Assembly: GCF_000153165.2 (NCBI RefSeq)
Contig: NC_014472.1
Coordinates: 3,344,001 to 3,408,000 of the forward strand
Reading direction: 5' to 3'
DNA from: Maribacter sp. HTCC2170
Lineage (GTDB): Bacteria > Bacteroidota > Bacteroidia > Flavobacteriales > Flavobacteriaceae
Length of the DNA: 64,000 nt
Shown: one piece after another, positions 2,436 to 63,806 of the stretch
Position numbering within the stretch: position 1 is the first letter of the stretch
Layout of the letters: every line of letters begins with the position of its first letter
Notes under the pieces: model-generated
What the model saw: only the letters and a program-made list of their open reading frames with translations
The model's database searches: none
What the model was told of the DNA's origin: nothing
Translations under genes and position numbers: made by a program

Positions 2436-3239
2436 CTGAATAAAATCAATCATAAAGAAAAACATACCGCCCTTTCAGTTAATAACCTTTCAATAGGTTA
2501 TAAATCGAAAAATGTAGCCTCGGTAGTTGCGGAGGGCTTAAGTTTTTCACTCTCTCAAGGAGAAGTTGCAGCTATTGTAGGTGTAAATGGTATAGGAAAA
2601 TCAACACTCTTGCGTACTCTAGGAAAAGTACAATCCAAACTCGATGGGGTCATTTCTCTTAACAATAAAAAGTTGCAAGATTACGCATCCCTAGAATTTG
2701 CTTCGACTATCAGTTTGGTACTTACCGAGGGTCTCGCCTCAAAAAATCTAACAGTATTGGAGCTTATTGCTTTGGGTCGACAGCCGTACACCAATTGGAT
2801 AGGTAGTTTGAGCGAAAATGATAAAAACAAAATAAAAGAAGCCCTTAGAATGGTCGACTTAGAAGGCCTAAAGGATAAAAAATGTTATGAATTAAGTGAT
2901 GGTCAATTGCAGCGTGTGATGATAGCCAGGGCTTTGGCCCAGGATACCTCAATTGTATTGTTAGATGAACCAACCTCTCACCTAGACCTTCATCACAAAG
3001 TGCAGATATTGAAGCTTTTGAAACAAATAGCACATAAAACACATAAAACCATTTTGTTCACAAGTCATGAGATTGAAATGGCCATTCAGCTCTGTGATAA
3101 AATACTGATTATGAACAAAAAAGGTCATGAATTTGGTCAACCTAGTGAATTAATTGAAAATGGGTCTTTTGAACGGCTTTTCCCCCAAGACACGGTGAAG
3201 TTTGACTCAAAAACGGGTTCATTTAGAATAGAAAAGTAA
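2436..3239 (+). CDS. FecE/BtuD-like ABC importer ATPase, start probably CTG
   Basis: The frame encodes a complete ATPase: Walk A GVNGIGKST (residues 49-57 counting from CTG at 2436), signature LSDGQ (153-157, Asp for the usual first Gly), Walk B IVLLDEP (173-179) and an H-loop in TSHE. It powers the importer made by the two preceding genes. An in-frame TGA at 2424 closes the frame, and no ATG, GTG or TTG occurs before TTG at 2610, which would discard Walk A. CTG at 2436, one base after the permease stop, gives the start (M)NKINHKEK and a 267-residue product of normal length; ATC at 2445 is an alternative. Confidence 0.85.
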   Translation: MNKINHKEKHTALSVNNLSIGYKSKNVASVVAEGLSFSLSQGEVAAIVGVNGIGKSTLLRTLGKVQSKLDGVISLNNKKLQDYASLEFASTISLVLTEGLASKNLTVLELIALGRQPYTNWIGSLSENDKNKIKEALRMVDLEGLKDKKCYELSDGQLQRVMIARALAQDTSIVLLDEPTSHLDLHHKVQILKLLKQIAHKTHKTILFTSHEIEMAIQLCDKILIMNKKGHEFGQPSELIENGSFERLFPQDTVKFDSKTGSFRIEK

Positions 3240-31400: not shown

Positions 31401-32139
31401 GGCGGCAATTCTTAGGGAAAAAGGCAGTAATTCTGAACGTGAAATGGCAAATGCCATGTATTTGGCCGGCTTTGATGTAAAAGATGTTCACATGACCGAT
31501 TTGATTTCGGGTCGTGAAAGCTTTGAAGATATTCAGTTTATAGGTGCTGTTGGCGGATTCTCAAACTCAGACGTGTTGGGAAGTGCCAAAGGATGGGCCG
31601 GAGCGTTTAAATACAATGAAAAAGCGAACAAAGCTCTTAAAAACTTCTTTGCAAGACCTGACACACTTTCAGTTGGTATTTGTAATGGGTGTCAATTATT
31701 TATGGAATTGGATTTAATAAATCCGGATCACGAAAACCACGGGCGTCTTTTACACAATGATTCCCACAAACATGAAAGTGGTTTTACTTCTGTAGATATT
31801 CAAAAGAACAATTCGGTAATGTTATCTAATTTGGAGGGTGCAACCTTGGGTGTCTGGATTTCACATGGAGAGGGTAAATTCAGTCTACCTTATACTGAGG
31901 ACAAATATGACATTGTTGCTAAATACGGGTATGAAGGATACCCTGCAAACCCAAACGGAAGTGACTTCAATACCGCTATGCTATGCGATAAAACCGGTCG
32001 TCATTTGGTTATGATGCCACATATAGAACGTTCTATATTCCCATGGAACTGGGCAAACTACCCAATAAGTTCTGAAGACAAAGTATCACCATGGATTCAG
32101 GCATTTGTTAATGCTAGGGAATGGGTGGAGAACAAATAA
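28483..32139 (+). CDS. purL: Phosphoribosylformylglycinamidine synthase, single-chain
   Basis: The enzyme converts FGAR, glutamine and ATP to FGAM in purine synthesis. At 1218 residues it is the large single-chain form: an N-terminal PurS-like part, the linker with SQVNSEHCRHKIFNG (residues about 160), two AIRS-type ATP-binding halves (AETHNFPTTVEPFNGAATG, then GKDSLSMKQ) and a C-terminal glutamine amidotransferase with the nucleophile in GICNGCQLF (Cys1067) and the partner PHIERSIFPW. All key residues are present. A -7 element sits upstream; the GH20 gene follows after 15 bases. Confidence 0.97.
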   Translation: MIHFFGDVTTKVFAVQTQQELSQKDTNKLTWLFGNQPKINRASLDAFFVGPRAAMITPWSTNATEITQNMGVEGILRIEEFESVDKTYSDFDPMLSQKFNSLTQETFKVDVVPEAILEIDDISAYNNQEGLALSDDEVEYLNQLSEKIGRKLTDSEVFGFSQVNSEHCRHKIFNGTFIIDGEEMSSSLFKLIKETSKENPNDIVSAYKDNVAFVKGPKVVQFAPKSADKPDFYEEKEFESVISLKAETHNFPTTVEPFNGAATGSGGEIRDRLAGGKGSLPLAGTAVYMTSYSRLEENRPWEKAMPEREWLYQTPMDILIKASNGASDFGNKFGQPLIVGSVLTFEHTEDARRLGFDKVIMQAGGIGYGKAEQALKDVPNTGDKIVILGGDNYRIGMGGAAVSSADTGEFSSAIELNAVQRSNPEMQKRAANAVRGMVESEINPIVSIHDHGAGGHLNCLSELVEDTGGKIDLDKLPIGDPTLSAKEIIGNESQERMGLVIGQKDVDLLHRIADRERSPMYEVGDVTGDHRFTFESETKGDKPMDLDLEDMFGSSPKTIMNDITVDRNYENAAYSLENFHDYLDQVLQLEAVACKDWLTNKVDRCVGGKVAKQQCAGPLQLPLNNCGVMALDYKGKEGIATSIGHSPISGLIDPVAGSRNSITESLTNIIWAPLKDGLKSVSLSANWMWPCKNEGEDARLYKAVKAISDFSIDLGINVPTGKDSLSMKQKYKDGDIISPGTVIISASGNCDDITKVVEPVLQKDGGNIYYINLSKDSYHLGGSSFSQVLNKIGNKAPTVVDAGYLKTVFNTMQKAIRNGQILAGHDVAAGGLITTLLELCFSDVDLGADLDLSALGESDSIKLLFAENAGIVFQAKDASAIESFRFEQIEVIKIGSVTSESKLTIKNGGMELGLNVNSLRDTWYKTSYLLDQKQTANNLADDRFKNYKNQPLQYNFPNSFTGELPSQVQKRPKAAILREKGSNSEREMANAMYLAGFDVKDVHMTDLISGRESFEDIQFIGAVGGFSNSDVLGSAKGWAGAFKYNEKANKALKNFFARPDTLSVGICNGCQLFMELDLINPDHENHGRLLHNDSHKHESGFTSVDIQKNNSVMLSNLEGATLGVWISHGEGKFSLPYTEDKYDIVAKYGYEGYPANPNGSDFNTAMLCDKTGRHLVMMPHIERSIFPWNWANYPISSEDKVSPWIQAFVNAREWVENK

Positions 32140-37034: not shown

Positions 37035-37105
37035 GAGTGCTCTTTAAAAAGTAACAATTAACATATCCCGGTAAATTAGCATTTGAAAATTATACAACTA
37101 ATCAG

Positions 37106-37324
37106 ATAAAAACGTACAGCAGAACCTTACTTGTCATAGGAATTGTTGTATTACTTATCATGTGCGTTGTATTAGGCTATTCCTTATATCCAATAGCAAA
37201 TGGTACAGATTCCATACTTATCTATAGGGTTCCAACACTTCTCGGGCCGCTCTCCATCTTTACCTTATTGTTTTCTACCAAGTTCACCAGCGAAATCAAA
37301 AAAAGGGAGAAAAACAATCTATAA
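37106..37324 (+). CDS. Small two-span membrane protein without a standard start codon
   Basis: An open frame between the acyl-CoA ligase and marR encodes TYSRTLLVIGIVVLLIMCVV, then GYSLYPIANGTDSILIYRVP and LLGPLSIFTLLFSTKFTSEI with a basic tail ending KKREKNNL: two hydrophobic segments split by a polar loop, as in real small membrane proteins. The frame is open from 37055 but the first ATG (37160) falls inside the first span and would leave 54 residues. ATA at 37106 gives a well-formed 72-residue protein starting (M)KTYSRT. This suggests a non-standard start, a start-codon mutation or a sequence error. No family is recognised. Confidence 0.5.
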   Translation: MKTYSRTLLVIGIVVLLIMCVVLGYSLYPIANGTDSILIYRVPTLLGPLSIFTLLFSTKFTSEIKKREKNNL

Positions 37325-37365: not shown

Positions 37366-37393
37366 AAATTTATTATGCATGCATAATAAATTT
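37366..37393. promoter_or_regulatory. 28-bp perfect palindrome, probable MarR operator
   Basis: The half-site AAATTTATTATGCA (37366-37379) is followed directly by its exact reverse complement (37380-37393). It ends three bases before the -7 element TATATTTG and covers the -33 position, where a bound dimer would block RNA polymerase. The next gene is a MarR regulator, so autoregulation and control of the downstream beta-oxidation genes is the natural inference. Confidence 0.75.
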
Positions 37394-37396
37394 TTA

Positions 37397-37404
37397 TATA
37401 TTTG
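37397..37404 (+). promoter_or_regulatory. -7 element of the marR/beta-oxidation operon
   Basis: TATATTTG matches the consensus fully. Transcription would begin near 37410, which rules out the TTG at 37402 as the marR start and leaves a leader of about 13 bases. Confidence 0.6.
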
Positions 37405-37422
37405 GTAGCCAATTTGTCCCGC

Positions 37423-37875
37423 ATGAAAGAAATGACCATAGATTATACACTGAGAGCCACTTGGCAATCGGTTGCTAGAATGTACAATGAAGAAGCTAAG
37501 GGATTTGGTTCAACGATGGCTGTTGGCTTTACCTTGTTAAGTATTGACCCTAAAACCGGTACTCCTTCTACAGCTTTAGGACCAAAAATGGGAATGGAAG
37601 CAACCAGTTTATCAAGGATCTTAAAAAGTATGGAGGAAAAAGGGCTGATTGAAAGAAAGCCCAATCCTAAAGATGGAAGAGGAGTCTTGATACACCTCAC
37701 TGAATTTGGTCTAGAGAAAAGAAACGACTCCAAAAATGCCGTTTTCAATTTTAACGATAAGGTCAAAGCAAATGTTACGGAGGAACAATTGAATAACTTT
37801 TTTGAGGTAATGGATACCATTAATAGGTTAATATCTGAAAAAAACATAACAATAAAAGAATCAACAACTAATTAA
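37423..37875 (+). CDS. MarR-family transcriptional regulator of the beta-oxidation operon
   Basis: The 150-residue protein (start ATG 37423, chosen because the promoter overlaps any earlier start) is a winged-helix regulator: helix MYNEEAKGFGSTMAVGFTLLS, recognition region MEATSLSRILKSMEEKGLI and wing ERKPNPKDGRGVLIHLTEFG, as in MarR proteins. Such proteins act as dimers on palindromes and release DNA when a ligand binds; an acyl-CoA or fatty acid is a reasonable guess from context. The gene is 15 bases before the FadN-like gene and is probably co-transcribed with it. Confidence 0.9.
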   Translation: MKEMTIDYTLRATWQSVARMYNEEAKGFGSTMAVGFTLLSIDPKTGTPSTALGPKMGMEATSLSRILKSMEEKGLIERKPNPKDGRGVLIHLTEFGLEKRNDSKNAVFNFNDKVKANVTEEQLNNFFEVMDTINRLISEKNITIKESTTN

Positions 37876-37890
37876 TACAGCTTATAATAA

Positions 37891-40296
37891 ATGAACAAGC
37901 ATATTAAAAAAGCAGCAGTTATTGGCTCGGGTATAATGGGAAGTGGCATAGCCTGTCATTTTGCCAACATCGGTGTCGAAGTACTGTTATTGGATATAGT
38001 TCCACGAGAACTAGACGAAAAAGAAAAGGCCAAAGGCATGACCCTTGAGGACAAGGCAGTACGTAATAGATTGGTGAACAGTTCTTTGGCAGCGGCCTTG
38101 AAATCAAAGCCATCCCCTATTTATCATCAAAAATTTGCCTCAAGAATAACCACAGGTAATCTTGAAGACGATATTTCCAAAGTAGCTAAGGTAGATTGGA
38201 TTATCGAAGTTGTGGTCGAACGATTGGATATTAAGAAAATAGTTTTTGAAAACCTTGAAAAGCATAGAACTCCAGGAACACTGATTACTTCAAATACTTC
38301 AGGTATTCCTATCAAATTTATGTCGGAAGGAAGAAGTGATGATTTCCAAAAGCACTTCTGTGGAACGCATTTCTTTAATCCAGCCCGTTATTTAAAATTG
38401 TTTGAAATCATTCCTGGTCCAAAAACTTCACCTGAAGTATTGGATTTCCTTAATGGATATGGTGAGCAATTTTTAGGAAAAACTTCAGTGGTTGCTAAAG
38501 ACACTCCTGCATTTATTGGCAATAGAATTGGAATCTTCAGTATTCAGAGTCTTTTCCATATGGTGAAAGACATGGGAATGACCGTTGAGGAGGTTGATAA
38601 ACTAAGTGGACCGGTAATTGGGAGACCAAAATCCGCCACATTCAGAACTGTTGATGTTGTTGGTTTGGATACATTGGTGCACGTCGCCAATGGTATTTAT
38701 GAGAATTGTTCCGATGATGAAAAACATGAGCTTTTCAAACTTCCAGATTTCATCAATACAATGATGGAAAACAAATGGTTGGGTAGTAAATCAGGGCAAG
38801 GATTCTACAAAAAAATAAAGAACGATAAAGGAAAAAGTGAAATCCTGACCTTGGATTTGGACACGATGGACTATCGCACCAAAAAAAGAGCCAGTTTTGC
38901 TACACTTGAGCTAACAAAGACCATTGATAAGGTTGTTGATAGATTCAAAGTTCTTGTCTCAGGTAAAGATAAAGCGGGCGAATTCTATAGGAAGAGTTTT
39001 GCAGCCTTATTTGCCTATGTGTCGCATAGAATTCCTGAAATTACCGATGAACTTTATAAGATTGATGACGCTATGAAAGCGGGATTTGGATGGGAACATG
39101 GTCCTTTTCAGATTTGGGATGCCATAGGCCTTGAAAAAGGAATGGAAATCATGAAGGCTGAAGGTCAAGAACCAGCAGCATGGGTTTCTGAAATGGCCGC
39201 CGCCGGAATAAATTCATTTTATTCGGTAAAAGAAGGAGCTACATATTTCTACGATATTCCTAAAAAATCCATGGAGAAAGTTCCTGGTCAAGATTCATTT
39301 ATCATTTTGGACAACATTCGTAAATCCAACGAAGTATTCAAAAATAGTGGTGTCGTTATTGAAGATTTGGGCGATGGTATATTGAATGTAGAATTCCAAT
39401 CCAAAATGAACACGATTGGTGGTGATGTTTTAGCAGGATTGAACAAAGCAGTTGATTTAGCCGAAAAAGACTTTCAAGGACTGGTTGTCGGCAATCAAGC
39501 AGCAAATTTCTCTGTTGGTGCCAACATTGGAATGATTTTCATGATGGCCGTGGAGCAGGAATATGATGAGCTGAATATGGCAATAAAAATGTTCCAGGAC
39601 ACGATGATGCGCATGCGTTATTCTGCGATTCCAACGGTATCGGCTCCTCATGGAATGTGCTTAGGTGGTGGTTGCGAATTGTCCTTACACGCTGATAAGG
39701 TTGTTGCCGCTGCAGAAACTTATATTGGTTTAGTTGAATTTGGTGTAGGTGTTATACCAGGTGGTGGCGGTTCTAAGGAATTTGCCCTGAGAGCTGCTGA
39801 TACGTTTAAGAAGAATGATGTTGAATTGAACGTTTTGCAAGAATATTTCTTGACTATTGGTATGGCAAAAGTTTCGACCTCTGCTTATGAAGCCTATGAT
39901 TTAGGAATTCTTCAAAAAGGCAAGGACATTGTTGTAGTAAATAAGGACCGACAAATAGCCACAGCCAAAGCACATGCCAAATTGATGGCTGAAGCCGGTT
40001 ATACACAACCCGTAAAAAGAAAAGATATCAAGGTACTTGGTAAACAAGCATTGGGTATGTTCTTGGTAGGTACAGATGCTATGGAAGCAAGTCACTATAT
40101 AAGCGAACACGACCATAAAATAGCAAATAAATTAGCCTATGTAATGGCCGGTGGAGATCTTTCCGAACCAACCATGGTAAGCGAACAATACTTATTGGAC
40201 ATTGAACGCGAAGCATTTTTAAGTTTATGTACAGAACGTAAAACTTTAGAGAGAATTCAGCATATGCTTAAAACAGGTAAACCATTAAGAAATTAA
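37891..40296 (+). CDS. fadN: 3-hydroxyacyl-CoA dehydrogenase/enoyl-CoA hydratase (FadN-like)
   Basis: The 801-residue bifunctional enzyme performs hydration and NAD-dependent dehydrogenation in fatty-acid beta-oxidation. The dehydrogenase comes first: nucleotide motif GSGIMGSGIACHFAN (residues about 12-26), then HFFNPARYLKLFEIIPG with the catalytic histidine, and the 3HCDH helical domains. The enoyl-CoA hydratase follows in the C-terminal third (SVGANIGMIF, GMCLGGGCELSLHAD, FGVGVIPGGGGSKE). This order is that of Bacillus FadN, the reverse of E. coli FadB. It is in an operon with marR, the thiolase (3 bases later) and the acyl-CoA dehydrogenase. Confidence 0.94.
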   Translation: MNKHIKKAAVIGSGIMGSGIACHFANIGVEVLLLDIVPRELDEKEKAKGMTLEDKAVRNRLVNSSLAAALKSKPSPIYHQKFASRITTGNLEDDISKVAKVDWIIEVVVERLDIKKIVFENLEKHRTPGTLITSNTSGIPIKFMSEGRSDDFQKHFCGTHFFNPARYLKLFEIIPGPKTSPEVLDFLNGYGEQFLGKTSVVAKDTPAFIGNRIGIFSIQSLFHMVKDMGMTVEEVDKLSGPVIGRPKSATFRTVDVVGLDTLVHVANGIYENCSDDEKHELFKLPDFINTMMENKWLGSKSGQGFYKKIKNDKGKSEILTLDLDTMDYRTKKRASFATLELTKTIDKVVDRFKVLVSGKDKAGEFYRKSFAALFAYVSHRIPEITDELYKIDDAMKAGFGWEHGPFQIWDAIGLEKGMEIMKAEGQEPAAWVSEMAAAGINSFYSVKEGATYFYDIPKKSMEKVPGQDSFIILDNIRKSNEVFKNSGVVIEDLGDGILNVEFQSKMNTIGGDVLAGLNKAVDLAEKDFQGLVVGNQAANFSVGANIGMIFMMAVEQEYDELNMAIKMFQDTMMRMRYSAIPTVSAPHGMCLGGGCELSLHADKVVAAAETYIGLVEFGVGVIPGGGGSKEFALRAADTFKKNDVELNVLQEYFLTIGMAKVSTSAYEAYDLGILQKGKDIVVVNKDRQIATAKAHAKLMAEAGYTQPVKRKDIKVLGKQALGMFLVGTDAMEASHYISEHDHKIANKLAYVMAGGDLSEPTMVSEQYLLDIEREAFLSLCTERKTLERIQHMLKTGKPLRN

Positions 40297-40299
40297 AAG

Positions 40300-41490
40300 A
40301 TGAAAACAGCATATATAGTAAAGGCATATAGGACAGCGGTTGGTAAGGCACCCAAAGGTGTGTTCCGTTTTAAAAGAACCGACGAGTTGGCTGCAGAAAC
40401 CATCGAATACATGATGAAAGAGTTGCCTGATTTTGATAAAAAACGTATTGACGATGTCATCGTAGGTAACGCCATGCCTGAAGGATCACAGGGATTGAAC
40501 ATGGCACGTTTGATTTCTCTAATGGGCTTGGATATTGTTGATGTCCCCGGAGTAACAGTAAATCGATTCTGTTCTTCAGGAATTGAAACCATTGGTATCG
40601 CAACAGCAAAAATACAAGCAGGTATGGCCGATTGTATTATTGCGGGTGGAGCAGAGAGTATGAGTTCAGTACCTATGACCGGTTATAAAACTGAGTTGAA
40701 TTACGATTTAGTTAATTCAGGTCATGAAGATTATTACTGGGGCATGGGAAATACTGCGGAAGCGGTGGCCAATGAATTCAAAGTGTCAAGGGAAGATCAA
40801 GATGAGTTTGCCTACAACTCTCATATGAAAGCATTGAAAGCATTGGCTGAAGATCGTTTTCAAGATCAAATTGTTCCAATTGAAGTTGAGCAAACATACC
40901 TTGATAATAATGGCAAAAAAGCCACAAAAAAGTACACGGTAACTAAAGACGAAGGACCCCGTGCTGGAACCAGTAAAGAGGTACTTGGGAAACTAAGGGC
41001 TGTTTTTGCCGCTGGCGGAAGTGTAACCGCAGGTAATTCATCTCAAATGAGTGATGGCGCTGCTTTTGTTATGGTGATGAGTGAAGAAATGGTAAAAGAA
41101 TTGAATCTTGAACCAATTGCCAGAATGGTCAACTACGCCGCAGCGGGTGTGGAACCTAGAATCATGGGTATAGGACCAGTAAAAGCTATTCCAAAAGCCT
41201 TGAAACAAGCCGGTTTAAAACAAGATGATGTTGAGCTAATAGAATTGAACGAAGCGTTTGCTTCCCAATCACTAGCAGTTATGAGAGAATTAGACCTTAA
41301 CCAAGATATTGTCAATGTCAATGGTGGCGCAATTGCATTAGGTCATCCTTTAGGATGTACAGGGGCTAAATTATCAGTTCAATTATTTGATGAAATGCGT
41401 AAGAGGGATATGCAGGGCAAATACGGAATGGTAACAATGTGTGTAGGTACAGGTCAAGGGGCTGCTGGTATCTACGAGTTTTTGAAATAA
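40300..41490 (+). CDS. fadA: Acetyl-CoA C-acyltransferase (thiolase)
   Basis: The enzyme performs the last step of beta-oxidation, cleaving 3-ketoacyl-CoA with CoA. The 396-residue protein has all thiolase landmarks: the acyl-accepting cysteine in VNRFCSSGIETI (Cys91), NEAFASQS near 319, His349 in ALGHPLGCTGA and the second cysteine in MCVGTGQGAAG (Cys381). It starts three bases after the FadN stop and is 24 bases before the acyl-CoA dehydrogenase, so translation is probably coupled. Confidence 0.96.
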   Translation: MKTAYIVKAYRTAVGKAPKGVFRFKRTDELAAETIEYMMKELPDFDKKRIDDVIVGNAMPEGSQGLNMARLISLMGLDIVDVPGVTVNRFCSSGIETIGIATAKIQAGMADCIIAGGAESMSSVPMTGYKTELNYDLVNSGHEDYYWGMGNTAEAVANEFKVSREDQDEFAYNSHMKALKALAEDRFQDQIVPIEVEQTYLDNNGKKATKKYTVTKDEGPRAGTSKEVLGKLRAVFAAGGSVTAGNSSQMSDGAAFVMVMSEEMVKELNLEPIARMVNYAAAGVEPRIMGIGPVKAIPKALKQAGLKQDDVELIELNEAFASQSLAVMRELDLNQDIVNVNGGAIALGHPLGCTGAKLSVQLFDEMRKRDMQGKYGMVTMCVGTGQGAAGIYEFLK

Positions 41491-41514: not shown

Positions 41515-43326
41515 ATGAGTACCGAATCAAAAGAAAAAGACCTTTTAAGAGGTGGGCAATTTCTAGTTAAGGAAACCAAGTGTGAAGATGTATTTACATT
41601 GGAGGATTTGTCAGAAGAGCAACGCATGATGCGTGATAGCACAAAGGAATTTGTAGATCGCGAACTTTGGGCACATTGGGAACGTTTTGAAAAGAAAGAC
41701 TATGCCTATACAGAAGAGTGTATGCGCAAAGCAGGAGAACTCGGTCTTCTTTCCGTTGCTGTACCGGAGGCTTATGGCGGAATGGGTATGGGCTTTGTAT
41801 CCACAATGTTGGTATGTGACTATATTTCTGGTGCCACAGGTTCATTTAGTACTGCCTTTGGTGCTCATACAGGTATTGGCACCATGCCGATTACACTTTA
41901 TGGCACTGAGGAGCAAAAACAAAAATATGTCCCTAGATTGGCTTCTGGTGAATGGTTCGGAGCTTATTGCTTAACAGAACCAGGTGCAGGATCTGATGCA
42001 AATTCAGGAAAAACCAAAGCGGTTCTATCCGAGGATGGCAAACACTACTCAATCACCGGTCAAAAAATGTGGATTTCAAATGCTGGTTTTTGCAATATGT
42101 TCATTGTATTTGCTCGAATTGAAGACGACAAGAACATTACAGGTTTTATTGTAGAGAATGACCCAGAAAATGGAATTACTATGGGTGATGAAGAGAAAAA
42201 ATTAGGTATTCACTCCTCCTCTACCCGCCAAGTTTTCTTTAGCAATACAAAAGTACCCGCTGAAAATATGCTTTCTGAGCGTGGCAACGGATTTAAGATT
42301 GCCATGAACGCCTTGAATATTGGACGAATAAAACTGGCCGCTGCTTGTTTGGAAGCGCAACGAAGAATCATTGGTGAGGCAGTTAATTATGCAAACGAAA
42401 GAATTCAATTCAAAACACCAATAATCAATTTTGGGGCGATAAAAGGCAAAATTGCAGATATGGCTACTGATACCTATGCTGGGGAATCAGCAAGTTATAG
42501 AGCTGCAAAAAATATAGAGGATCGGATTGCACTCCGTGTTGCTGCTGGTAATTCACATCAAGAGGCTGAATTAAAAGGGATTGAAGAATATGCCATTGAA
42601 TGTTCTATTCTAAAAGTTGCGGTTTCAGAAGATGTACAGAGTACCACCGATGAAGGACTACAAATCTTTGGCGGTATGGGCTTTAGTGCCGATGCACCTA
42701 TGGAAAAGGCATGGAGAGATGCAAGGATTGCAAGAATTTATGAAGGCACCAATGAGATCAACCGAATGCTTTCAGTAGGTATGTTGGTTAAAAAAGCAAT
42801 GAAGGGTCATGTTGACCTTTTAGGCCCAGCAACCAAAGTTGGCGAAGAATTAATGGGGATTCCTTCTTTCGATGCTCCAGATTTTTCAGAATTGTTCGCT
42901 GAAGAGAAAGATTTGGTGGCCAGACTAAAAAAAGTGTTCTTAATGGTCGCAGGTAGTGCTGTCCAAAAATTTGGTCCTGCATTGGAAAAACACCAACAAT
43001 TGATGATGTGTGCCGCAGATATCCTAATCGAAATCTATATGGCGGAATCAACCATTCTTAGAACTGAAAAGAATGCCAAACGTTTTGGTGAAGAAGCACA
43101 GATTACTCAGATAGCAATGTCTAAACTTTATTTGTACAATGCTGTTGAAATAGCCATTTCTAAAGGAAAAGAAGCCATAATTTCTTTTGCTGAAGGTGAT
43201 GAGCAACGTATGATGTTAATGGGACTTAAGCGTTTCACAAAATATACCAATAACCCAAATGTAGTTGCTTTACGCACTCAGATTGCTGATAAGATTGCTG
43301 CAGACAACGGTTACACCTTTGACTAA
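41515..43326 (+). CDS. fadE: Acyl-CoA dehydrogenase (FadE/VLCAD-type)
   Basis: The flavoenzyme catalyses the first oxidation step of beta-oxidation. In the 603-residue protein the FAD-contacting region is AYCLTEPGAGSDANSGKTKA, followed by GQKMWISNAGFCN, LGIHSSSTRQVFF and the C-terminal signature GFSADAPMEKAWRDARIARI plus YEGTNEINR. The extra C-terminal domain (about 150 residues) places it with the very-long-chain class, not the 380-residue short-chain enzymes. It closes the operon; a strong terminator follows. The electron acceptor (ETF) genes are not in the window. Confidence 0.94.
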   Translation: MSTESKEKDLLRGGQFLVKETKCEDVFTLEDLSEEQRMMRDSTKEFVDRELWAHWERFEKKDYAYTEECMRKAGELGLLSVAVPEAYGGMGMGFVSTMLVCDYISGATGSFSTAFGAHTGIGTMPITLYGTEEQKQKYVPRLASGEWFGAYCLTEPGAGSDANSGKTKAVLSEDGKHYSITGQKMWISNAGFCNMFIVFARIEDDKNITGFIVENDPENGITMGDEEKKLGIHSSSTRQVFFSNTKVPAENMLSERGNGFKIAMNALNIGRIKLAAACLEAQRRIIGEAVNYANERIQFKTPIINFGAIKGKIADMATDTYAGESASYRAAKNIEDRIALRVAAGNSHQEAELKGIEEYAIECSILKVAVSEDVQSTTDEGLQIFGGMGFSADAPMEKAWRDARIARIYEGTNEINRMLSVGMLVKKAMKGHVDLLGPATKVGEELMGIPSFDAPDFSELFAEEKDLVARLKKVFLMVAGSAVQKFGPALEKHQQLMMCAADILIEIYMAESTILRTEKNAKRFGEEAQITQIAMSKLYLYNAVEIAISKGKEAIISFAEGDEQRMMLMGLKRFTKYTNNPNVVALRTQIADKIAADNGYTFD

Positions 43327-43357: not shown

Positions 43358-43388
43358 AAAAAGCCACCCGTACGAGGGTGGTTTTTTT
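43358..43388 (+). terminator. Terminator of the beta-oxidation operon
   Basis: CCACCC (43364-43369) pairs with GGGTGG (43376-43381), extended by A/T pairs outside, followed by seven T. Confidence 0.9.
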
Positions 43389-62381: not shown

Positions 62382-63806
62382 TTATTTTACAAGGTTCCCC
62401 AATAATTGTAATGCTAAATCAACTTGCTTCAAATGAGTTCTAAAAGATAGTACAGCAAAACGTATCCAATAGGCGCCATCAATTGTTGTGGATGACAGAA
62501 AAATACGGCCGTCTTGCATAATTTGCTTCACTAATTTCAAATTATAAGCATTGGCATCTTCGGTTTTGGGAACATATCTAAAGATAGCTATTGACAGGTC
62601 TGGCTCTGGCCCCACTTCAAAGCCCAGTTTTTGTATTTCTTCATAAAAGTATTGGCACAATAGTATTTTTTCTTCCAAAGCGGCCCTAAAAGGTGCTACC
62701 CCCAATAACTGAAGGGATATCCACATACGAAGTCCACGAAAATGCTTGGTTAGCTCAGGAGAAAGGTCTGCAGGTGAGGGGTCTTCATCTAGGTTAAACG
62801 CATCTTGCATGTAGTTCGCTGTATAATGATGTGTCTGGTACAAAGCGTCTGTATCCTTTATTAAAACCGCACCGATACCATAAGACAAAAACAAACCTTT
62901 ATGTGGATCAATGGCAATAGAATCGGATAATTCTATGCCCTTAAAAGCAGGCTTTATTCTATTGGAAAGCATAAAAAACCCTCCGTAAGCAGCATCCACA
63001 TGAAACCACAATTTGTTTTCTTTGGCTATACCCCCTATTTTTTTCAATGGGTCAATGGCTCCTGTATCTGTGGTCCCTGCTGAACCAAAAACCATAAATG
63101 GCAATAAACCATTTGCTTTATCTTGTTCAATTTGGATGTTTAGTTTTTCAGGAATCATCTTAAAACTTGAATCCATAGGAATATATCGCACGATACTTTC
63201 CTTCATTCCAGCAACCCGTAATGATTTTTGCACACAATGGTGTAACTGCTTGGTCATATAAATAACACACCTGTCAACATCTTTAGCCTTAATTCCTTTT
63301 GCGTCCCTAGCCGTAGTGATAGCCGAAAGGTTAGCAATGGAACCTCCAGAAGTCAAATTACCCAAGGCCGTGACCGGATAACCAACCATCTTACACATCC
63401 ATCGAAGCAACATATTTTCCATACGCACACCCCCAGGACAGGCAAAGAAAATGCCAGCATAACGATTGGTTATCGCGGCTAGATAATCCCCAAGAGCGGT
63501 GGTAAAAACACCTCCACCAGGAATGTATCCAAAATGACCACCAGATGCTGGGTTTATATTGGGGGTATCCACATTTTCTTTCAAGCATTGCAAAACCTCC
63601 TCAATGGGTTTACCTTCATCTTCGATAGATAAATCTAGGATACCTTTACCCATATTTTCAGAAACGACAAAGGTGTTATTTTGATTGAATTCATCCAGAA
63701 AATTGTCAGCATACTTCTGTACAGAAGTATTCCAATGTGCCCTTTTGTTATTAACTGGTTCCAACTTACGTGAGATATCTTCCAACTCCATTATGCTTTT
63801 TTTCAT
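62382..63806 (-). CDS. Group II PLP-dependent amino-acid decarboxylase (second copy)
   Basis: The 474-residue enzyme has the PLP lysine Lys303 in DPHKGLFLSYG, the pyridine-nitrogen aspartate Asp271 in HVDAAYGGF, LTSGGSIANL (151-160) for phosphate binding and the N-terminal GHFGYIPGGGVFTT loop. It is cytosolic and belongs to the aromatic-L-amino-acid decarboxylase-like class. It differs clearly in sequence from the first copy (at 47 kb), which has DGHKMMMMP at the same site, so the two are old paralogues or were gained separately. The substrate is unknown. Confidence 0.9.
   Translation of the reverse strand: MKKSIMELEDISRKLEPVNNKRAHWNTSVQKYADNFLDEFNQNNTFVVSENMGKGILDLSIEDEGKPIEEVLQCLKENVDTPNINPASGGHFGYIPGGGVFTTALGDYLAAITNRYAGIFFACPGGVRMENMLLRWMCKMVGYPVTALGNLTSGGSIANLSAITTARDAKGIKAKDVDRCVIYMTKQLHHCVQKSLRVAGMKESIVRYIPMDSSFKMIPEKLNIQIEQDKANGLLPFMVFGSAGTTDTGAIDPLKKIGGIAKENKLWFHVDAAYGGFFMLSNRIKPAFKGIELSDSIAIDPHKGLFLSYGIGAVLIKDTDALYQTHHYTANYMQDAFNLDEDPSPADLSPELTKHFRGLRMWISLQLLGVAPFRAALEEKILLCQYFYEEIQKLGFEVGPEPDLSIAIFRYVPKTEDANAYNLKLVKQIMQDGRIFLSSTTIDGAYWIRFAVLSFRTHLKQVDLALQLLGNLVK

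Follow-up and report, generated by a model that had tools for sequence, protein, structure and literature searches.

A perfect palindrome, AAATTTATTATGCATGCATAATAAATTT, lies directly before a marR-fadN-fadA-fadE operon in the 64,000-nucleotide stretch of DNA analysed here (the window), which raises the question of what binds it and how far such control would extend. The favoured answer, with a probability of roughly 0.8, is that the palindrome is the operator of the adjacent, autoregulated MarR, which would serve Bacteroidia as the pathway regulator for taking up and degrading fatty acids. The features on which this reading is built are collected in Table 1.

Table 1. Features of the marR locus, followed by the operator-like sites located elsewhere in the genome.
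Feature	Position	Strand	Basis or remark
Perfect palindromic operator (predicted), 28 bp	37366..37393	.	conserved core TATGCATGCATA at 37374-37385
-7 element TATATTTG	37397..37404	+	Bacteroidota sigma-A type TAnnTTTG; 17 bp past dyad
marR, 150-aa MarR-family winged-helix regulator	37423..37875	+	Pfam PF01047 7e-11; AlphaFold2 model
fadN, 3-hydroxyacyl-CoA dehydrogenase / enoyl-CoA hydratase (FadN/FadB-type)	37891..40296	+	profile matches
fadA, acetyl-CoA C-acyltransferase (thiolase)	40300..41490	+	profile matches
fadE, acyl-CoA dehydrogenase	41515..43326	+	NCBIfam NF058590 719 bits, cutoff 600
Intrinsic-terminator-like hairpin, operon end	43358..43387	+	sequence
Operator-like site before etfBA	C1:256782		profile search
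Operator-like site before GDSL lipoprotein gene	871866		profile search
Operator-like site before 4HBT/acyl-ACP-thioesterase-like gene divergent from nitronate monooxygenase	1845117		profile search
Operator-like site before TonB-dependent receptor gene	1934712		profile search
Operator-like site before FadH/OYE-family reductase gene	2902967		profile search

The two half-sites of the palindrome abut without a spacer over exactly 28 bp, as the initial annotation had described, and their length of 14 makes it the longest perfect palindrome of the window, with half-lengths of 10 and 9 for the runners-up. These next-longest palindromes (63711-63730 and 32021-32038) lie within coding sequence and have a chance-like look. 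The annotation had also judged a chance origin very unlikely, which agrees with the longest half-length of 11 (compared with 14) in 60 first-order Markov windows and with an iid expectation of 0.0006 palindromes with a half-length of at least 14 per 64 kb. The 28-mer is single-copy in the 3.87-Mb genome at up to three mismatches. A search of the whole window for the core at no more than one mismatch recovers the palindrome plus one chance-like site at 63450 and nothing else, in line with the earlier remark that no copy precedes the acyl-CoA ligase gene (35262). The open frame 37080-37322, between this gene and the operator, reads like a short membrane peptide.

The -7 element begins three bases past the end of the palindrome, and the ATG of marR (37423) follows about 30 bp downstream of it. 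The flavobacterial sigma-A box TAnnTTTG sits at -12 to -5 (PMC9723704), which places the dyad near -30 and makes the palindrome span the -33 region, so that both its proposed overlap with -33 and its three-base distance from the -7 element hold. Scanning for sigma-70 promoters is uninformative for this phylum. The mechanical ORF list lets marR begin further upstream, at TTG 37402, but all aligned orthologues begin at ATG 37423, which is the most likely start. The gene identities proposed for the operon are upheld by the PF01047 match of the regulator, the FadN/FadB-type and thiolase assignments and a FadE score above the NCBIfam cutoff.

The regulator has typical MarR properties in its sequence and its predicted structure. 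Its winged-helix domain matches PF01047 with 42.3 bits (curated cutoff 24.6), and the AlphaFold2 model (pLDDT 89) shows the usual MarR fold, its top matches including relatives bound to DNA; the best Foldseek matches are MarR, SlyA-DNA and MepR-DNA at a TM of about 0.7-0.8. No GntR or TetR domain was found in the protein, which matches only MarR-type and related winged-helix models, and it is therefore distinct from the FadR of E. coli and the TetR-type FadR of Bacillus, as had been suggested. None of the NCBIfam MarR equivalogs (Saro_0803, BilQ, HpaR, SlyA) is matched above its cutoff, the best score being 43.5 bits against a required 200.

Within the family, 284 of 301 genomes have an orthologue of this MarR; for the class as a whole the figure is 77 of 159, and in a sample of the phylum all orthologue matches (21/21) fall inside class Bacteroidia. 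The gene is directly followed by fadN in 137 of 138 orthologous loci. Conservation of the palindrome at such marR-fadN loci had been named in advance as the test that could refute its role. The core TATGC-NN-GCATA, counted as kept when at least 9 of its 10 bases are present before marR, was found upstream of marR in 109/109 loci of the family and 28/29 of the class; the reversed core was found in none. The proposed role therefore withstands this test. Thirteen further loci reach down to 38% protein identity (38-46% in the most diverged orthologues), and the core is exact (10/10) in 12 of them; the single locus without the core is also without an adjacent fadN. The site also keeps its position. 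Across the window and 80 named records the palindrome is present in 81/81 loci, with a distance of 17-18 bp from its dyad to the -7 box in 78. Of the other three, two are artefacts of pattern matching within an AT tract, and one is without the box as written.

The symmetry of the site is less well kept than its core. Half-site positions 2-6 are unvarying in the family set, and the outer arms are AT-rich and have lost part of their symmetry in relatives. The proposal that the palindrome is an operator is thus carried by the conserved core, and the perfect 28-bp symmetry falls away as a conserved feature, with only a core of about TATGCNNGCATA invariant. Co-variation of the arms at +-7 (Fisher p 0.03) and +-10 (p 0.014) is seen among close relatives, whose sequences are not independent, and is absent among distant ones. 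A symmetric constraint on all 28 bp, which was considered as well, consequently holds only in part. Some distant orthologues (L196, L201, L204, L221) carry two tandem operator copies upstream of marR.

The operator is not confined to the marR locus. A profile trained on marR-upstream sites alone and run against the whole genome (3.87 Mb) returns six loci at E<=8e-3, marR included, and the five others precede genes that fit fatty-acid metabolism. The following match (828937, E=0.7) lies within a gene and was set aside, as were four 3-mismatch matches (347224, 709541, 2017504 and 2995814) that are asymmetric and located within genes or at a gene start. The idea of a self-regulated fatty-acid-degradation operon is supported by these sites in all but its restriction to a single operon, the marR site being one member of a dispersed regulon. 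One gene that a regulon of this kind would be expected to contain, the acyl-CoA ligase gene adjoining the operon, is without a site at up to one mismatch in the core.

The small number of sites also bears on a reading that needs no regulator at all, in which the palindrome is a structural or repetitive element (a cruciform or a REP/MITE-like sequence) or a product of chance. Although a perfect, AT-rich inverted repeat would suit this reading, there are only six copies in the genome, all at fixed promoter positions; the letters of the core are conserved and not their pairing alone, the palindrome lies upstream of the transcription start, and its length is far beyond that found in random windows. 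Chance, a REP-like repeat and a cruciform were ruled out on the few copies, the letter conservation and the fixed promoter spacing, and the probability left to them is close to nil.

The sites outside the marR locus are found in relatives as well. In a set of 30 relatives, etfB has the operator in front of it in every genome (30/30), and the TonB receptor gene does in 24/28. Where the GDSL gene stands alone, an operator of its own lies before it in 10/12 genomes; where it comes straight after the TonB receptor gene there is none (0/14), nor is there one in the single genome where it is located behind FadL. One upstream operator can serve both genes where GDSL follows the TonB receptor, and the appearance of an operator with the GDSL gene once the operon splits is strong evidence of function. 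Loci L152, L154 and L303-L317 illustrate this: many relatives have the GDSL gene right behind that of the TonB receptor, whereas in the lineage of the window it is on its own and each of the two genes has an operator; in L191, FadL-GDSL occupies the place of GDSL. The arrangement of GDSL with a TonB receptor or FadL suggests a lipid-uptake system, which makes the uncharacterised TonB receptor and the GDSL lipoprotein a likely pair of lipid-uptake components.

Taken over this genome and its relatives, 38 of the 40 non-marR sites examined precede a small recurring gene set, which consists of the families seen in this genome plus a second TonB receptor, KAS III, fabH-accBC and FadL-GDSL. The same operator before several fatty-acid operons, kept in relatives, is what marks a fatty-acid regulon, and it is observed here. 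In L163, L167, L182 and L184 (sites at about 3000-3100), operators also stand before fabH-accB-accC and KAS III genes, a hint that the regulon of some lineages extends to fatty-acid synthesis.

The operator and the regulator are distributed together. Exact TTATGCRYGCATAA sites number 66 in 34 MarR-bearing genomes, against 4 for the reversed pattern, and 2 in 17 MarR-less genomes. One of the latter two (G015, L133, about 1500-1514) precedes a KAS III gene in a genome that is 84% complete, the other (G210, L135, about 1500-1514) precedes acpP, and a search for MarR at E<=1e-3 found none in either genome. These sites may reflect a second regulator of the motif or the loss of MarR. They are also what speaks for a genuine operator of the same regulon that is bound by another factor (e.g. 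a TetR- or GntR-type protein encoded elsewhere) and not by the adjacent MarR, whose assignment is itself predicted from sequence. Against this, nearly all orthologous loci of the class have the site immediately upstream of marR, and the motif is almost missing where MarR is missing. Autoregulated MarR genes, moreover, typically carry palindromic sites over their own promoter, as is the case here, and a factor other than MarR is improbable. The operator, its conservation, the regulon and the co-distribution with MarR can be read directly from the genomes, and the MarR-operator pair very probably controls fatty-acid catabolism and uptake through much of class Bacteroidia.

If the adjacent MarR is the cognate regulator, the proposed mechanism would start with a MarR dimer on the core TATGC-NN-GCATA. 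Because the site overlaps the marR-fadN-fadA-fadE promoter at its -33 region, the bound dimer would keep the operon from being transcribed, and such autorepression is the simplest inference. Once fatty acids have been imported and activated, their acyl-CoA would probably bind MarR, release it from the operator and thereby induce the beta-oxidation operon. The same MarR would bind the operators before etfBA, which encodes the electron acceptor of FadE, before the TonB-dependent receptor and the GDSL lipoprotein, both with a probable role in lipid uptake (FadL-GDSL in one relative), and before the thioesterase/nitronate-monooxygenase pair and the FadH/OYE-like reductase. MarR binding, repression, the acyl-CoA ligand and the role of the TonB receptor are what we infer. 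The ligand is predicted from pathway logic and by analogy with related MarR proteins, among them CouR, for which p-coumaroyl-CoA is the releasing ligand (PMC4737184).

The predicted regulon can be compared with several known systems. Its content is strikingly similar to that of the TetR-type FadR of Bacillus subtilis, which jointly controls fadNAE, etfBA and a FadH-type reductase; the FadR operons are lcfA-fadRB-etfBA, fadNAE and fadH (PMC6529636). Here, by contrast, the regulator is a MarR protein encoded inside the fadNAE operon, the operator is different, outer-membrane uptake genes (TonB receptor, GDSL, FadL) are included and the adjacent acyl-CoA ligase is without a site. The predicted regulon also resembles those of E. 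coli FadR (GntR) and the proteobacterial PsrA/FadP (TetR), in that a presumed acyl-CoA sensor controls beta-oxidation and uptake across the whole pathway (PMC5343134), yet the DNA-binding family and the operator found here are unrelated, as in a non-orthologous replacement. CouR, HcaR and similar regulators are likewise MarR repressors beside catabolic operons, and a CoA-thioester ligand releases CouR (PMC4737184). HcaR shows weak sequence and fold similarity to this MarR, and the Saro_0803 model is another weak match. Both CouR and HcaR, however, serve aromatic-acid pathways and not fatty-acid genes with a multi-operon regulon, and the scores are far below the family cutoffs. FabT, a MarR protein of Streptococcus, also regulates lipid genes, in its case those for fatty-acid synthesis in Firmicutes. 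Its DNA-bound structure, 6jbx, is one of the fold matches, but at 19% identity orthology is without support here.

Bacteroidia are major degraders in the sea, in soil and in fish-associated habitats, and neither a fatty-acid regulator for them nor a description of this regulator or its motif was found in the open-access literature, to which the search was restricted. The novelty of a MarR regulator and operator as a lineage-wide fatty-acid control of Bacteroidia is provisional to this extent. The beta-oxidation genes of F. psychrophilum are strongly induced by fish mucus and plasma, and the main text of that transcriptome paper neither mentions MarR nor names a regulator (PMC9723704). The MarR regulon is a candidate explanation for this induction by host material, and it offers a specific gene, a precisely defined operator and a set of predicted targets for testing in a flavobacterium amenable to genetics.

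The distance from the dyad to the -7 box differs between the members of the regulon. It is 17-18 bp at marR, about 27 at etfBA (to a -7-like box), 44-45 at the TonB receptor and 44-47 at GDSL, where the boxes of the latter two were assigned by consensus alone. In the TonB and GDSL cases the dyad is thus 44-47 bp upstream of the box instead of over it, so that simple occlusion fails to explain every site. A dual regulator would account for this: MarR would repress at promoter-overlapping sites (marR-fadNAE, nitronate monooxygenase), activate the TonB receptor and GDSL genes from sites centred about 56-59 bp before the start, and in some genomes also touch fatty-acid synthesis genes. This is a refinement of the best explanation and not an exclusive rival. 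It is consistent with the conservation of the distance classes, with the asymmetric right flank GCATAATTTTTT common to the TonB and GDSL sites and with the sites before KAS III, fabH-accBC and acpP in relatives. Positions alone, however, are no proof of activation, and repressors can also act from about -60; dual regulation can be entertained tentatively. A broader version, in which a single MarR is an ancient global fatty-acid regulator of class Bacteroidia and a non-orthologous counterpart of FadR, repressing catabolism at promoter-overlapping sites and, from sites further upstream, activating genes of uptake or synthesis (the TonB receptor and GDSL, joined in some lineages by KAS III, fabH-accBC and acpP), is rather unlikely. 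In the TonB-receptor promoters of L154, L165, L170, L174, L177 and L178, a shared TAnnTTGS box lies about 44-45 bp past the dyad; it is similar to TAnnTTGY, the alternative motif SM5 in F. psychrophilum (PMC9723704).
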